From NCBI GenBank assembly GCA_024639765.1, contig JAHEHU010000019.1:1-42162 (forward strand): DNA of 42,162 bases. Direction: 5' to 3'. The translations under genes were made by a program, and so were the position numbers. The notes beneath the pieces were generated by a model. That model was not told where the DNA came from. It did no database searches and was given only the letters and a program-made list of their open reading frames with translations. This stretch comes from Eudoraea sp. GTDB lineage: Bacteria; Bacteroidota; Bacteroidia; Flavobacteriales; Flavobacteriaceae. Positions within the stretch are counted from its first letter, which is position 1; the number at the start of each line of letters is the position of its first letter. Positions 9,059-28,617 of the stretch are shown here, in pieces.

Positions 9059-9466
9059 ATGGGGATGAAAGTTACACCGTCAAAAACACCGGTTGTCATA
9101 AAGGAGTATGTCTTAGAAATAGGGAGCGTTCAAGTTTTTGACAATTATATGGTGGCTGTTTTTGATGAAGGATGTACGGTGACTTTGGAAAGGGCTTATC
9201 AACTGATCGGGATTTCAGAAATTCACTTTAGAGACAAACCTTTCGGCTTTATAAGTTTAAGAAAGAACTCTTATGCTTTAGATCCTACCATCTATAATTA
9301 CGTAAGAGAATTAGATAACCTTAAGGCTTTTGCAATTGTCTCTGTGAAAGAAATGGACATGCACAACTTTGCTATTGAAAAAATGTTCTACAAAAAGCCT
9401 ATGAAATTTTTTATTGATTACAATAATGCCCTTACCTGGATAAAAAGACGGGTTTCTAAGAAGTAG
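9059..9466 (+). CDS. conserved hypothetical protein, possibly STAS/SpoIIAA-like
   Basis: 135-aa intact ORF; mixed alpha/beta pattern; family assignment tentative. Confidence 0.7.
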   Translation: MGMKVTPSKTPVVIKEYVLEIGSVQVFDNYMVAVFDEGCTVTLERAYQLIGISEIHFRDKPFGFISLRKNSYALDPTIYNYVRELDNLKAFAIVSVKEMDMHNFAIEKMFYKKPMKFFIDYNNALTWIKRRVSKK

Positions 9467-11009
9467 GTTCTTCCGTAGGATCATTTTCTTCTAGGTCATT
9501 TTCAGGCAGAAGTAACTCCCCGAAAGCACTTCCTAATTGCGCTATTATATTACTTGCTATCAGCGCCTCCACACTACCCCCCCGCAAAGCTATGTCACCT
9601 GCCCTTCCATGGATGTAAACACCCATGATGGCCGACTCTAGTGATGAATATCCTTGTGCAATAAGGCCTGAAATTATACCGGTAAGCACATCACCACTTC
9701 CCGCAGTGGCCATTCCGGGATTACCTGAATCATTTACATATCCTTTATCTCTATAAACTGTGATGGTATGGGCACCTTTAATAACAACAATTACATCGTG
9801 AGTAGTGGAAAACTCCTTCACCTTTTCCAACTTCTCAAAATCACCCTCCCAAGGGCCAAGCAATCGTTCCAATTCCTTAGGGTGAGGTGTTAAAACCGTT
9901 TGGGGACGCAAGTAGCTTAATAAGGATTTCTTCTTGGAAAGAATATTTAATCCGTCCGCATCAATAACTAGGGGAGCTTTATTTTCCTTTAAAAAGGCCT
10001 CGAATGCTGAAATAGTAGCATCTGAAATTCCAACTCCAATTCCAAAGGCTATCACTGAGGTATCAATATCCACCTTTATTTGGGTGAGTTGGTCCTCATC
10101 TTTATCGGTAATAACCATTACTTCCGGTAGTGCGCTTTGAAGCGGAAGATATCCACATCCCGGAACATATGCCGTAACCAGCCCACTGCCGGCTTTTAAA
10201 CACGCCTTGGCTGCCAGATGTACTGCACCAATCTTACCGAATGAACCACCAATGATCAATGAATGACCATAAGTGCCTTTATGAGTAAATTTTTGTCTGG
10301 GACGGTACAGGGCCCCGATCTCTTTTTGCTGTATAAGCTCATACCCTATGGGTAATGTAGAAACAAACTCCTGGTCCAAACCAATATCAAGTATCGCCCA
10401 ATATCCACAGTAGGGTCCGGTTTCCGGAAGGAAAAACACAAGTTTGGGATACTGAAATGACAATACCACGCTGGCTCTTACAATACCCTGAGGGTTGCCA
10501 ATAGCAATGTCAGTGAACAATCCTGACGGAATATCTATGGCGAGAATGAATGCTTGGGAAGCGTTTATATGAGCAATAAGTTTTATAACCCATTCATCCG
10601 GATTTCTATTGAGTCCGGTGCCAAAAATAGCATCTACAATTACATCATCCTTGGGGATACTTGGAAAAATATCTTTTTTGGAAAGGACGTGTGGCCAAAT
10701 CTTCCGGTCCTTAAGTCGGTCCAGGTTAGTAAGAAAATCTGCAGATCTCTTATCGCTATAATTTACGATATACACCTCCACGGAATAACCGTGTTCCGCC
10801 AGATGCCGGGCAACCACCAGACCGTCTCCTCCATTATTCCCGATACCACAAAAGAGGTGCACCGTTACAGGCGCTCCCTGTAATTGCTGATGAAGCCAAT
10901 TAAAAAGAGCTGTTCCGGCCCTTTCCATAAGATCATCACTCTTTATACCCTGATTTTGAATGGTATACTGATCGGTTTTTCTAACTTGTTCGCCAGTTAG
11001 TATGTACAT
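9456..11009 (-). CDS. nnr: bifunctional ADP-dependent NAD(P)H-hydrate dehydratase / NAD(P)H-hydrate epimerase
   Basis: N-terminal YjeF-like epimerase (GIGNNGGDGLVVARHL), C-terminal carbohydrate-kinase-like dehydratase (GNPGMATAGSGDVLTGIISGL). Confidence 0.95.
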   Translation of the reverse strand: MYILTGEQVRKTDQYTIQNQGIKSDDLMERAGTALFNWLHQQLQGAPVTVHLFCGIGNNGGDGLVVARHLAEHGYSVEVYIVNYSDKRSADFLTNLDRLKDRKIWPHVLSKKDIFPSIPKDDVIVDAIFGTGLNRNPDEWVIKLIAHINASQAFILAIDIPSGLFTDIAIGNPQGIVRASVVLSFQYPKLVFFLPETGPYCGYWAILDIGLDQEFVSTLPIGYELIQQKEIGALYRPRQKFTHKGTYGHSLIIGGSFGKIGAVHLAAKACLKAGSGLVTAYVPGCGYLPLQSALPEVMVITDKDEDQLTQIKVDIDTSVIAFGIGVGISDATISAFEAFLKENKAPLVIDADGLNILSKKKSLLSYLRPQTVLTPHPKELERLLGPWEGDFEKLEKVKEFSTTHDVIVVIKGAHTITVYRDKGYVNDSGNPGMATAGSGDVLTGIISGLIAQGYSSLESAIMGVYIHGRAGDIALRGGSVEALIASNIIAQLGSAFGELLLPENDLEENDPTEEPTS

Positions 11010-11154: not shown

Positions 11155-11185
11155 TTGGGTTGGGTATCTAAAAATACTACATTTG
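11155..11185 (+). promoter_or_regulatory. Bacteroidota-type promoter for the thr operon
   Basis: TTG (11155-11157) - N20 - TACATTTG (11178-11185), matching TTG-N19-21-TAnnTTTG. Confidence 0.65.
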
Positions 11186-11231
11186 AACGCTTATAAGGGT
11201 GTGTATAATAACCGCTAACTGTCATTTTCAG

Positions 11232-11288
11232 ATGAAAGAACCAATACGTATTGGAACAGTCCTTCTTACTACCACCCCATGGGGGTAA
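11232..11288 (+). CDS. thrL: putative thr operon leader peptide MKEPIRIGTVLLTTTPWG
   Basis: ATG AAA GAA CCA ATA CGT ATT GGA ACA GTC CTT CTT ACT ACC ACC CCA TGG GGG TAA; 4 Thr and 2 Ile in 18 codons, between the promoter and thrA, with adjacent hairpins; the symbol is by functional analogy only. Confidence 0.65.
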   Translation: MKEPIRIGTVLLTTTPWG

Positions 11289-11341
11289 ATCTATATTTTT
11301 ACTCCGTTATAGTCGTTTCTTTTCTTTAATTTTTGATTGTC

Positions 11342-13786
11342 ATGAAAGTTTTAAAATTTGGTGGTACTTCCGTAGCTACGGCAGCTAGTATCCAACAGGT
11401 ACAGAATATCATCGCCAATACTAAGGCCAAAAAATTGATTGTTGTGGTATCTGCCTTGGGTGGAGTAACGGATTTGTTGCTTAATGCGGCCTCAACCGCC
11501 GCTGCACAGGAAATCACTTACAGGGACATTCTAAAGAAAGTAGAGGCTCGTCACCTCAGCATTATAAAAGAATTACTACCGTTAAAAGCTCAAAGCAAGG
11601 TGCTGAGCAAGGTTAAAAGTGAGCTGAATGTTTTAGAGACCCTTCTTGAAGGGGCGTTTTATATTGGGGAGAGAACCCCCAAACTTACCGATAAGATCGT
11701 GAGTTTCGGAGAACTTTTATCTGCCTATATCATAAGTGAATATTTCAAAGAAGTTGGCCACAAGGCCATTTTTAAAGATAGCAGGGAATTACTTATCACA
11801 GATAATAATCACGGCAAAGCCACAGTAGATTTTGAAGAAAGTGGCGAACGCTGTTTGAGATTCTTTTCCAAGGAACAAGCCCCAATTATAGTAATGCCGG
11901 GTTTTATTGCCGCCACCGCGGATGGAAATGTCACAACTCTTGGTAGAGGAGGATCAGATTATACGGCATCTATAATAGCTGCTGCCCTGGACGCAGAAGA
12001 ATTACAAATATGGACAGATGTTAGTGGCATGTACACGGCTAATCCTAAACTAGTGAAGCAAGCAAAAGCCATCCCTCATATCTCCTATGAGGAAGCAATG
12101 GAATTATCTCATTTTGGCGCCAAAGTATTATATCCTCCTACTATTCAGCCTGTTCTGGCTAAAGGTCTTCCCATGGCCATTAAGAATACCTTTGAACCAG
12201 ATGCACCTGGCACCTTGATAATGCAGAAAGCACCTGAAGAAGGAAGGACAGTTAGGGGAATAACGAATATTCCAGATATTACACTTCTATCACTAGAAGG
12301 TCCAGGAATGATCGGTATTCCCGGTATTTCCAAACGATTTTTTGAAGTGCTTTCACAAGCCGAGATCAGTGTTGTTCTAATTACCCAGGCATCATCAGAA
12401 CACTCTATTTGCATAGGGATCGCAGATGAAGATGCAGAAAAGGCCGTGAGTATGTTGAATAAGGCCTTTGCCTACGAGATGACCTTGGAAAAAATAAAAC
12501 CGATTCTTATTGAAAAAGAATTGGCCATCATTGCCCTGGTTGGTGATCAAATGAAAAATCATCAGGGTCTAAGCGGAAAAATGTTCAGTACCCTCGGTAA
12601 GAACAATGTAAATATCCGGGCTATTGCCCAGGGGGCCTCTGAACGGAATATTTCTGCAGTGATAAGGAAAGAGGATGTGAAAAAAGCGCTGAATACACTT
12701 CATGAAGCCTTTTTTGAGGAACAGACAAAACAATTGAATTTGTTCATTCTAGGAGTAGGAAATGTGGGCTCAAAATTGCTGGAGCAATTAAAACAACAAA
12801 AAAGGTACTTAAAGGAACATTTACGTCTCAATGTTAGGGTTATTGGCATCTCCAATTCCCGTACTATGTATTTTGATGATCAGGGAATCCCCTTACAAAA
12901 ATGGCCAGAATTACTAGCCTCAGGAAAAACCGCAGATGCATCAGAATTCTACAATACTATTCTGAAGATAAATGCAAGAAATAGCATATTGGTGGATAAT
13001 ACAGCCAGTGAGAAGGTTGCGAATAGTTATAGTACCTATCTCAAGCAAAGCATCGCGGTGGTGACCTGTAATAAAATTGCTTGTTCCTCTGGGTATGAGT
13101 ACTATACCCAACTTAAAGAACTGGCGAAGGAATACGAGGCGCCTTTCCTGTTTGAAACAAATGTAGGTGCAGGTTTACCTATAATAGACACATTAAAGCA
13201 CCTAATAGCATCTGGGGACGAGATCATTACAATTAAGGCCGTGCTATCGGGAAGTCTCAACTTCGTGTTTAATAATTTTAACGAGACCACAACGTTTCAC
13301 GATGTCGTAAAACAAGCTCAAGAAGAAGGTTATACAGAGCCCGACCCAAAAATAGATCTTAGTGGAATTGATGTAATGCGCAAAATTCTTATACTGGCGA
13401 GGGAAAGTGGGTATGAACTAGATCTAAAGGAAATTGAGAACAAGTCCTTTCTTCCTGAAGAAGCACTGAAAACGAACAACAATGAGGCCTTTTTTACTGC
13501 TTTGAAGAAATATGAGCGCAACTTTCAGCAGCTGGTGGCCGATGCAACTAAAGCAAATTGTAAACTTAAATTTGTAGCATCTCTCGATAAGGGAAAAGCA
13601 AGCGTTGGCCTGGAACAGATCCCTGTGGGGCACGACTTCTATTCCTTGGCGGGAAGTGATAATATTGTGCTCTTTTATACAAAAAGGTATCCTAAACAGC
13701 CACTGATCATAAAGGGTGCAGGTGCAGGTGCAGATGTTACTGCTTCCGGAATTTTTGCCGATATCATCAGAATAGGAACGTATTAA
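11342..13786 (+). CDS. thrA: bifunctional aspartate kinase / homoserine dehydrogenase I
   Basis: MKVLKFGGTSVATAASIQ kinase start, ACT domains, FILGVGNVGSKLLEQL Rossmann fold, GAGAGADVTASGIFADIIRI HSD C-terminus; the track start at 11333 is ATT, ATG is at 11342. Confidence 0.97.
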   Translation: MKVLKFGGTSVATAASIQQVQNIIANTKAKKLIVVVSALGGVTDLLLNAASTAAAQEITYRDILKKVEARHLSIIKELLPLKAQSKVLSKVKSELNVLETLLEGAFYIGERTPKLTDKIVSFGELLSAYIISEYFKEVGHKAIFKDSRELLITDNNHGKATVDFEESGERCLRFFSKEQAPIIVMPGFIAATADGNVTTLGRGGSDYTASIIAAALDAEELQIWTDVSGMYTANPKLVKQAKAIPHISYEEAMELSHFGAKVLYPPTIQPVLAKGLPMAIKNTFEPDAPGTLIMQKAPEEGRTVRGITNIPDITLLSLEGPGMIGIPGISKRFFEVLSQAEISVVLITQASSEHSICIGIADEDAEKAVSMLNKAFAYEMTLEKIKPILIEKELAIIALVGDQMKNHQGLSGKMFSTLGKNNVNIRAIAQGASERNISAVIRKEDVKKALNTLHEAFFEEQTKQLNLFILGVGNVGSKLLEQLKQQKRYLKEHLRLNVRVIGISNSRTMYFDDQGIPLQKWPELLASGKTADASEFYNTILKINARNSILVDNTASEKVANSYSTYLKQSIAVVTCNKIACSSGYEYYTQLKELAKEYEAPFLFETNVGAGLPIIDTLKHLIASGDEIITIKAVLSGSLNFVFNNFNETTTFHDVVKQAQEEGYTEPDPKIDLSGIDVMRKILILARESGYELDLKEIENKSFLPEEALKTNNNEAFFTALKKYERNFQQLVADATKANCKLKFVASLDKGKASVGLEQIPVGHDFYSLAGSDNIVLFYTKRYPKQPLIIKGAGAGADVTASGIFADIIRIGTY

Positions 13787-13848: not shown

Positions 13849-14781
13849 ATGAGCAAAGACACTGTTAAAATATTTTGTCCGGCCACTATAGCGAATATTT
13901 CGTGTGGTTTTGATGTGCTGGGACTTGCGCTTAAAGGCATAGGGGATGAAATGGTCATTAAAAAAGTGCCCTCCCCTGGTTTAAAGATCACTAAAATAAG
14001 TGGACTTGATCTGCCATTGGAAATCAATAAAAATGTAGCCGGAGTGGCGGGCCTGGCTTTCATGGAGGCATCAACATACACTGGAGGTTTTGAAATAGAG
14101 ATCTACAAAAAGATCAAGGCAGGAAGTGGAATAGGAAGTAGTGCGGCCAGCGCAGCAGGGGCCGTATGGGCTATGAATTACCTTATAGACTCTCCTTTTA
14201 ACCAACATCAATTGGTGCAATTTGCCATGGCAGGAGAAAAACTGGCTAGCGGTGTTGCCCATGCAGATAATGTGGCCCCCGCCATTTATGGAGGATTTAC
14301 CCTGGTAAGGAGTACAGAACCACTCGATGTTGTTCCCATACATGTTCCAAAAGAATTATACGCTTCCATCATTCATCCCCATATAGAAATAAAGACCTCC
14401 GACTCCAGAAAGATCCTCAAAACCAGTATTTCACTTGCAGATGGGATCAAACAATGGGGAAATGTGGGTGCTTTGGTAGCAGGTCTTTTTCAGGAAGATT
14501 ACGATCTTATCAGCAGGGCCCTGGAAGATCATATCGTAGAGCCTATCAGGTCTATCCTTATCCCTGGTTTTGATGAGGTAAAATTAGCAGCCTTACAAGC
14601 AGGTGCTCTAGGTTGCGGAATATCCGGATCGGGGCCTTCTATTTTTGCGCTGAGCAAAGGAGAGAAGACCGCACAAAAAGTAACACTGGCCATGAGCAAA
14701 GTATTTGAGAATATAGGTCTTTCACATGATGCTTATGTCTCTGAGATCAATACTAAAGGAATACAAATCATGACCCATTAA
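13849..14781 (+). CDS. thrB: homoserine kinase
   Basis: GHMP kinase motif KIKAGSGIGSSAASAAGAVWA; GCGISGSGPSIFAL; between thrA and thrC. Confidence 0.96.
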   Translation: MSKDTVKIFCPATIANISCGFDVLGLALKGIGDEMVIKKVPSPGLKITKISGLDLPLEINKNVAGVAGLAFMEASTYTGGFEIEIYKKIKAGSGIGSSAASAAGAVWAMNYLIDSPFNQHQLVQFAMAGEKLASGVAHADNVAPAIYGGFTLVRSTEPLDVVPIHVPKELYASIIHPHIEIKTSDSRKILKTSISLADGIKQWGNVGALVAGLFQEDYDLISRALEDHIVEPIRSILIPGFDEVKLAALQAGALGCGISGSGPSIFALSKGEKTAQKVTLAMSKVFENIGLSHDAYVSEINTKGIQIMTH

Positions 14782-14805: not shown

Positions 14806-16098
14806 ATGAACTTCTATAGCCTTCATACAAATGACGCCAAAGTTTCTTTTAAAGAGGCTGTTATCAATGGAATAGCTCCAGATGGTGGACTGTATTTTCC
14901 GGAACAGATCCCACAACTACCTGCCTCTTTTTTTGATAACATCGAGGGCCTTTCAAATCTGGAGATCGCCTTCAGGGCCTTATTCCCATTTGTTAAAGAA
15001 GATATTCCTGAGACAATTCTCAGGGAAATACTTGAAGAAGTACTCGATTTTGATTTTCCCCTTGTACCCATAAGTGAGCATGTTTCAACCCTCGAACTCT
15101 TTAATGGGCCCACTATGGCCTTTAAAGATGTTGGTGCACGCTTTATGGCCAATTGCCTGGGATACTTCTTCAGGGATTCTGAAAATAAAGTCACCGTCCT
15201 GGTAGCCACATCCGGAGACACCGGTGGTGCTGTAGCTAACGGGTTTCTGGGAGTTGCCGGGGTTGAAGTAGTAATTTTGTATCCCAGTGGCAAAGTAAGT
15301 GATATTCAGGAACGTCAATTAACAACTTTAGGACAGAACATTACCGCATTGGAAGTAAGTGGTACTTTTGACGACTGTCAGCGGATGGTGAAACGAGCTT
15401 TTGTAGATACCAGTCTAAAAGGAAGTGTACAGCTTACCTCAGCCAATTCAATAAATGTAGCTCGATGGTTGCCACAAATGTTATATTTTCTTTTTGCCTA
15501 CAAACATCTGAAAGCCTCGGGAAAAGAACTTGTATTTTCGGTTCCCAGCGGAAATTTCGGCAACATATGTGCCGGAATGTTGGCACAGCGCATGGGGATG
15601 CCGGTACGGCATTTTATTGCGTCCACTAATGTAAATGATACGGTTCCTGCGTATATGCAAACTGCCATCTATGAGCCTAAACCTTCCGTGGCAACCATTT
15701 CTAATGCCATGGATGTTGGGGACCCGAGCAATTTTATCAGAATACGTAAGCTGTATAATGATGATTTCTCAGAATTAAGTAAACATCTTACCTCTTATTC
15801 CTTCACTGATAAAGAGACCAAAGAAGCCATGAAAAATTTATATGCCAAAGCCGGCTATGTTGCTGATCCCCATGGTGCAGTTGGTTATTTGGGCCTCCAA
15901 AAATATCGGGAGAAGCATCCGAATACCTATGGTGTTTTCCTGGAAACTGCTCATCCTGTCAAATTTTTAGATGTAGTGTCCTCTACCTTGAACGTCACCC
16001 TATCGTTACCACCCCAGATAGCAAAGATCATGCATAAAGAGAAGGAATCTGTCTCCATTTCAGAGTACGAAGAACTCAGGTTATTTCTGTTGAAGTGA
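14806..16098 (+). CDS. thrC: threonine synthase
   Basis: ELFNGPTMAFKDVGARFMA PLP-lysine motif, TSGDTGGAVANGF; operon position. Confidence 0.97.
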   Translation: MNFYSLHTNDAKVSFKEAVINGIAPDGGLYFPEQIPQLPASFFDNIEGLSNLEIAFRALFPFVKEDIPETILREILEEVLDFDFPLVPISEHVSTLELFNGPTMAFKDVGARFMANCLGYFFRDSENKVTVLVATSGDTGGAVANGFLGVAGVEVVILYPSGKVSDIQERQLTTLGQNITALEVSGTFDDCQRMVKRAFVDTSLKGSVQLTSANSINVARWLPQMLYFLFAYKHLKASGKELVFSVPSGNFGNICAGMLAQRMGMPVRHFIASTNVNDTVPAYMQTAIYEPKPSVATISNAMDVGDPSNFIRIRKLYNDDFSELSKHLTSYSFTDKETKEAMKNLYAKAGYVADPHGAVGYLGLQKYREKHPNTYGVFLETAHPVKFLDVVSSTLNVTLSLPPQIAKIMHKEKESVSISEYEELRLFLLK

Positions 16099-27749: not shown

Positions 27750-28292
27750 ATGAGAATCATATCTGGTACACATAAAGGAAGGCGTATCAGTGCGCCAAAA
27801 AATTTACCTGTAAGGCCAACAACAGACATGGCTAAAGAAGCGCTGTTCAACATTCTAAATAATCAGTTTTACTTCGAAGATATTCGCGTTTTGGACCTTT
27901 TTGCCGGTACGGGCAATATAAGTTTTGAATTTGCTTCAAGAGGTTGCACAGATATTACAAGCGTAGATAGTTATCCCGGATGTATAAAATTCATTAGTGA
28001 GAAAGCTGCAGAATGGGGTTTTAATATCAAAGCAGTGAAAACGGATGTTTTTAAGTTTCTGGAATCGGCAACTGAAAGCTATGATCTGATCTTTGTGGAT
28101 CCTCCTTACGATATGCCCCTGGAACATTTTTGTAAGATCCACAGGCTGGTATATGAACGAAATTTACTTGCACCCTCAGGAACATTGATCATAGAACACT
28201 CCAAGCAAATGGAACTTTCGCACCTATCGCATCATACTTCTGTGAGAAAATACGGGAGTAGTTTGTTTAGTTTCTACCAGAAGGAGGTATAA
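27750..28292 (+). CDS. rsmD: 16S rRNA (guanine(966)-N(2))-methyltransferase
   Basis: MRIISGTHKGRRISAP, VLDLFAGTGNISFE, FVDPPYDMP. Confidence 0.96.
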   Translation: MRIISGTHKGRRISAPKNLPVRPTTDMAKEALFNILNNQFYFEDIRVLDLFAGTGNISFEFASRGCTDITSVDSYPGCIKFISEKAAEWGFNIKAVKTDVFKFLESATESYDLIFVDPPYDMPLEHFCKIHRLVYERNLLAPSGTLIIEHSKQMELSHLSHHTSVRKYGSSLFSFYQKEV

Positions 28293-28295
28293 AAA

Positions 28296-28613
28296 AAGCA
28301 GATCATAAGCCGGATTCTGTAGCCTTTAAAAGGATCCTTATCATTTATCTGGATCTTTGGTTACCCAAAGACTCTATCCGCCTACCCTTCAGCTTGGACG
28401 TGCCGCCCTCAAACACTGATTTACATGGCGTTTCACCACATAGAGTTTACATGATTTCACTACAGCTTAACCTGTACATTCTTTCTGTTGCACTAGTCCG
28501 CCCCACCCCGATTGTTATCGGAACGGGTGACGGGTGTTACCCGCTATGTTGCACTTTGGTGTCCGGACTTTCCTCCTCCCGCATCAAACGGGAAGCGATA
28601 AGGTGACCTGCTT
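28296..28613 (-). ncRNA. rnpB: RNase P RNA (bacterial type)
   Basis: minus strand AAGCAGGTCACC...GGGAGGAGGAAAGTCCGGACACC near the 5' end and ACAGAATCCGGCTTATGATCTGCTT at the 3' end; P1 pairs AAGCAGGTCA with TGATCTGCTT. Confidence 0.95.
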
Positions 28614-28617
28614 CTTG

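Follow-up and report, generated by a model that had tools for sequence, protein, structure and literature searches.

The thrABC genes of Eudoraea sp. are preceded by a short ORF which, judged by its conservation among relatives, is a real Thr/Ile leader peptide ORF and belongs to a threonine leader that, according to sequence comparison, is conserved across much of the Bacteroidota. The leader peptide very probably senses the supply of threonine (with isoleucine) for thrABC. The leader may act through attenuation that depends on Rho and/or pausing and is relieved when a ribosome stalls at the Thr/Ile codons, a reading to which we assign a probability of about 0.5.

In the window, i.e., the whole stretch of 42,162 nt analysed, thrA (11342-13786, plus strand; NF006959, 1065 bits), the predicted regulated gene encoding a bifunctional aspartate kinase/homoserine dehydrogenase I, is followed by thrB (homoserine kinase; 13849-14781, plus strand; NF002288) and thrC (threonine synthase; 14806-16098, plus strand; TIGR00260), the three genes lying consecutively and on the same strand as the leader ORF. 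The upstream neighbour of the leader region is a divergently oriented NAD(P)HX repair gene (9456-11009, minus strand). In Bacteroidota, translation mostly starts without Shine-Dalgarno initiation and promoters are mostly not of the E. coli type. A Bacteroidota-type promoter, TTG-N20-TACATTTG (11155-11185, plus strand; TTG at 11155, TACATTTG at 11178-11185), placed about 150 nt upstream of thrA by the preliminary description, is indeed present there and recurs as TTG-N19/20-TAnnTTTG 184-223 nt 5' of thrA in most relatives. A second aspartate kinase/homoserine dehydrogenase (39 % identical) is encoded elsewhere in the genome (G000:C152:3025-5424; L013, L169); its open frame of 1145 aa comprises ~330 extra residues and probably represents a fusion.

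The leader ORF (11232-11288, plus strand) comprises 18 codons, translates to MKEPIRIGTVLLTTTPWG followed by the stop codon, and carries its Thr run directly 5' of a hairpin at the ORF end (hairpin 1). As described from the window sequence, it contains Thr and Ile codons upstream of thrABC, and it proved to be conserved across the Flavobacteriaceae and beyond. In the closest relatives (Muriicola; thrA 91 % identical), the same promoter and leader ORF are present; here as well as in ~80 named Flavobacteriaceae contigs (Zobellia, Maribacter, Cellulophaga, Arenibacter, Flagellimonas and others), an ORF ending with TTTPLG, TPWG or similar immediately before the stop codon is located 55-80 nt 5' of thrA. 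In sixty further genera of the family the arrangement is mostly alike but richer in Ile, e.g., AIITTTTITTTPCGV. Alignment of the upstream regions across the family, suggested earlier as a check, thus revealed the short ORF and its Thr codon run in nearly all relatives examined, with some loci (e.g., L116, L138, L140, L146 and L147) lacking the element. After poor matches had been dropped, 126 flavobacterial thrA upstream loci entered the statistics, and the Thr/Ile-rich ORF ending in hairpin 1 is present in these 126 regions. The eight codons 5' of hairpin 1 encode Thr at 37.8 % and Ile at 17.7 %, compared to 5.2 % and 7.8 %, respectively, in neighbouring proteins.

The window alone could not have decided whether these features go beyond chance, since folding of the 171 nt examined in it is no better than that of shuffled sequence (z -0.24); the comparison with relatives settles this question. 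While such ordinary folding energy would agree with a short ORF and palindromes that arose by chance and have no regulatory role, this explanation is refuted by the conservation across the family and beyond as well as by the strong codon bias, leaving it virtually no probability.

The start codon of the leader is uncertain (ATG at 11232 versus an in-frame GTG at 11199), since the peptide initiated at the latter is nearer to the length usual among relatives (28-33 aa). The candidate 5' extension (11199-11231, plus strand) would yield VCIITANCHFQ-MKEPIRIGTVLLTTTPWG with 29 aa, and in the closest relative (L003, L019) the leader starts with an ATG within the stretch matching 11199-11231.

Hairpin 1, ACCCC-AUG-GGGGU (ACCCCATGGGGGT; 11274-11286, plus strand), is located at the end of the ORF where it had been described, and its arms are near-invariant in relatives. 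Its 5' end coincides with the last Thr codon (11274-11276), and the stop codon begins with its final stem base. All four bases occur at the wobble position of Thr codons lying outside the stem, whereas the one within the stem is practically always ACC. The arms are likewise kept while the loop varies in sequence and length (3-4 nt), as do the reading frame, the peptide C-terminus and the position of the stop codon, the latter lying in relatives anywhere between 7 nt ahead of the stem end and 18 nt beyond it. These sequence patterns indicate that hairpin 1 is under constraint at the nucleic acid level. Constraint rather than rich covariation carries this argument, because the core is invariant and outward extension pairs show complementarity no greater than chance: a fully compensated stem variant, AUCCC-CUU-GGGAU in Pricia antarctica (L077), is a rare case, 112 loci otherwise show no variation of the core ACCC:GGGU, and true covariation is thin. 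Hence, of the hairpin covariation to be looked for, conservation of the stem was found, compensation only rarely, and extension of the pairing not beyond chance level. Automatic DNA alignment misregisters variants with a 4-bp stem; stem statistics were therefore generated by script.

Near-invariant core arms forming an inverted repeat could also be expected if ACCCCnnnGGGGT were a DNA operator for a repressor and the ORF incidental. The spacing of the half-sites, though, differs by 1-2 bases, the repeat always directly follows in-frame Thr/Ile codons, and the stop codon is adjusted around the repeat, rendering a DNA operator very improbable.

Downstream of hairpin 1, a second conserved element, YAUAUAU followed by a UCC segment, is represented in the window by AUCUAUAUUUUUACUCC (11289-11305, plus strand), as assigned from the conserved element and its spacing. 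Among relatives, YAUAUAU starts 7-10 nt and UCC is found 14-18 nt after the stem, positions 7-16 being almost devoid of G; in more distant groups the element reads CAUAUC(A/G)UCC. It forms part of a G-poor, unstructured spacer extending to the thrA start (11287-11341, plus strand). The composition of the stretch between hairpin and thrA is A.33, C.20, G.08 and T.39, and the mean excess of C over G in the spacer amounts to 0.126 versus 0.005 (sd 0.077) in 116 control 5' regions and 0.002 before hisG. Many relatives (e.g., L043, L056, L069, L090 and L126) possess a second small hairpin 25-60 nt after hairpin 1, the arms of which vary and yet stay complementary (GCGC/GCGC, GCGA/UCGC, GCCU/AGGC, GUGU/ACAC; mean fold z -0.81); it is absent from the source genus and not followed by a U-tract in the relatives.

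Hairpin and element are also found before thrA in additional families (f2, f5, f15, f32, f57, f58, f74 and f93). In family f9 (L254, L255, L257), it is thrB instead of thrA that is preceded by this Thr-rich leader with its hairpin and UAUAUAU-UCC element, implying that the element is tied to threonine synthesis and not to a particular gene. When the order was searched with a covariance model built on the element (E <= 0.01), no genome gave more than one match, and all matches checked lie before a thr gene except for one in family f13 (L256), which is located within coding sequence and was rejected as a chance match. Family f19 (L245, L250, L279, L280) has a different type of thr leader, with an ORF ending in TTTTG or TITG and the stop codon placed in the loop of an ACGGG-GURA-CCCGU-like hairpin, the G/C polarity of which is opposite to that of hairpin 1.

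The preliminary description had named a perfect 14-nt palindrome within the ORF and proposed two mutually exclusive hairpins involving the sequence around the stop codon; this architecture found no general support. The palindrome CCAATACGTATTGG sits at 11241-11254, yet it was discarded, since neither the closest relative nor any other has it and it looks like chance. GGGGTAAA (11282-11289) is able to pair with TTTACTCC (11298-11305), and the corresponding alternative pairing GGGGUAAA:UUUACUCC (11282-11305, plus strand) would be possible only with hairpin 1 open. This pairing is recognisable in L003, L004, L007 and L008, and neither in the rest of the genus nor beyond; in the family as a whole, native combinations of the 3' arm with the downstream segment paired more weakly than swapped ones (z +2.6), which gives no sign of co-evolution. 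A textbook pair of mutually exclusive hairpins as a general design is therefore not supported by the comparison. Another candidate, long-range pairing of ACGGACAUA early in the ORF with GUCCGU after the stop codon in the Maribacter/Arenibacter group, was conspicuous on inspection and likewise dismissed (own-versus-swapped duplex energies, z -0.2). The segment ACGGACAUA itself (codons Thr-Asp-Ile) is conserved early in leader ORFs of the Maribacter/Arenibacter group (e.g., L023, L036, L056).

No terminator-like site was detected in the window between 11000 and 11500, and a G+C-rich hairpin with U-tract before the first structural gene, as characteristic for the classical thrL type, is likewise lacking in the window. 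The missing long U-tract pointed out for the Eudoraea leader turned out to be a general conserved property, in contrast to trp and his, whose leaders in the same genome possess intrinsic terminators. The terminator scan was positive for 2 of 126 thr leaders as compared to 7 of 8 trp and 12 of 14 his leaders of relatives, and U on average makes up ~0.36 of the eight bases that follow hairpin 1, i.e., near background. Based on these sequence features, the thr switch probably works by other means than an intrinsic terminator.

One may nevertheless consider classical intrinsic attenuation of the enterobacterial thrL type, with hairpin 1 or GGGGUAAA:UUUACUCC serving as a weak terminator despite the lack of a U-tract. 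Hairpin 1 is followed by a T-rich stretch in L117 and L151 and also in L261, true terminators exist in some Bacteroidota thr leaders (L248, L282, L284, L286), and the source genome has trp and his leaders of the classical type. Set against the scan results, the background-level U content and the confinement of the second hairpin to part of the genus, these cases leave intrinsic attenuation unlikely. Those thr leaders that are of the terminator type (L248, L282, L284, L286) are devoid of the hairpin and the YAUAUAU-UCC element, so that terminator and hairpin element look like alternative platforms for the same sensor, a pattern which would favour a role in transcription.

The trp leader of the source genome (G000:C13:6684-6800; L167) matches the Rfam family Bacteroid-trp and has a strong intrinsic terminator at its end, and the terminator of its his leader is GGACCCGTTTGAGCAATCAAACGGGTTTTGTTTTT. 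Upstream regions of hisG (L195-L213) in Flavobacteriales contain His-rich leader ORFs (e.g., MSFIQLHHHHF) with canonical terminators, and nothing clear was found for ilvD leaders.

Translational attenuation represents a further option, in which translation of the leader would shift the pairing at the thrA start such that thrA is translated only upon ribosome stalling. In its favour, the thr leader has no intrinsic terminator, the UCC segment behind hairpin 1 might in principle find another pairing partner, and a precedent is provided by E. coli toiL, where a stalled ribosome frees the start site and Rho is secondary (PMC12121999). Masking of the start site is, however, disfavoured by several observations: the region around the thrA start shows less structure than in control genes (z +0.75 versus +0.23), the linker avoids pairing with the beginning of the thrA coding sequence, the start is not sequestered, the distance between hairpin 1 and the thrA start varies among relatives from 55 to 174 nt, and the linker is kept where thrB replaces thrA downstream. 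Pairing of the UCC element with thrA codons was also rejected, since own pairs are weaker than swapped and shuffled ones and the element also precedes thrB. Overall, translational attenuation has a low probability.

For Rho- and/or pause-dependent attenuation, the following sequence of events may be envisaged. When threonine is plentiful, the ribosome would complete the leader and leave at the stop codon, and hairpin 1 would be free to form. Hairpin 1 together with the AU-rich stretch 7-14 nt behind it may then hold RNA polymerase at a pause, and the exposed unstructured RNA with its excess of C over G may allow Rho to terminate before or early in thrA. When charged tRNA is scarce, the ribosome on the leader ORF would stall at the Thr/Ile run and cover or open hairpin 1, and the stalled ribosome may cancel termination by Rho. 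In the source genus, the freed GGGGUAAA may additionally mask the UCC segment.

Rho generally prefers unstructured RNA with C in excess of G. Rho is encoded in the genome, and an unstructured stretch with C over G is found downstream of the sensor; this finding is also compatible with other causes, as the skew could alternatively leave the thrA start accessible or prevent pairing of the spacer with ACCCC. In his and trp leaders, pause hairpins have ~5 bp with the RNA 3' end 10-12 nt behind. Hairpin 1, with 4-5 bp and YAUAUAU starting 7-10 nt behind, resembles these in size and spacing of the AU stretch and would be a candidate pause hairpin.

Leader-peptide attenuation of threonine biosynthesis (thrL) is classical in enterobacteria such as E. 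coli, and the Rfam family Thr_leader covers the enterobacterial thr operon leader. As in thrL, a Thr/Ile codon run in the flavobacterial leader is contained in a short ORF directly upstream of thrABC, and a hairpin overlaps the ORF end. Unlike thrL, it has neither a U-tract terminator nor a family-wide pair of exclusive hairpins, and it has a conserved YAUAUAU-UCC element of its own.

Among known leaders of the phylum, Bacteroid-trp (RF01692; listed in PMC2864571) shares the leader-peptide regulation of an amino acid operon and is present in the same genome; it consists of one long hairpin holding the Trp codons plus a canonical terminator, whereas the thr element has neither. For Flavobacterium psychrophilum, a member of the same bacterial family, "strong clues" for leader-peptide attenuation before amino acid operons were reported (PMC9723704); threonine is not mentioned in the main text, and the leaders meant there may overlap with the thr leader. 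In E. coli, the uORF toiL upstream of topAI senses antibiotics and frees the topAI ribosome-binding site (PMC12121999). The thr leader resembles toiL in that stalled ribosomes on a short uORF would control the next gene, Rho-dependent termination taking part at toiL, and differs from it in that masking of a start site was not seen at thrA. A published description of the thr element was not found in the literature searched, subscription papers and supplements lying outside its scope.

With odds a little short of even, one may speculate that many Bacteroidota employ a leader-peptide switch in which a stop-codon hairpin, the YAUAUAU-UCC element and Rho and/or a programmed pause replace the intrinsic terminator, i.e., a distinct and unlisted RNA element on a platform unlike that of the trp and his leaders in the same cells. 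One genome that combines textbook terminators at trp and his with a thr leader seemingly devoid of one provides a natural comparison, bearing on how ribosome position becomes a transcription decision in Bacteroidota and whether this occurs via Rho or pausing.

The Bacteroidota thereby gain a conserved threonine leader element matching no Rfam model: Rfam covariance models including Bacteroid-trp (RF01692) gave no meaningful match at the thr leader, while RF01692 does match elsewhere in the genome. In another part of the window (28291-28614, minus strand), an RNase P RNA of bacterial class A is present (RF00010, 189.5 bits).
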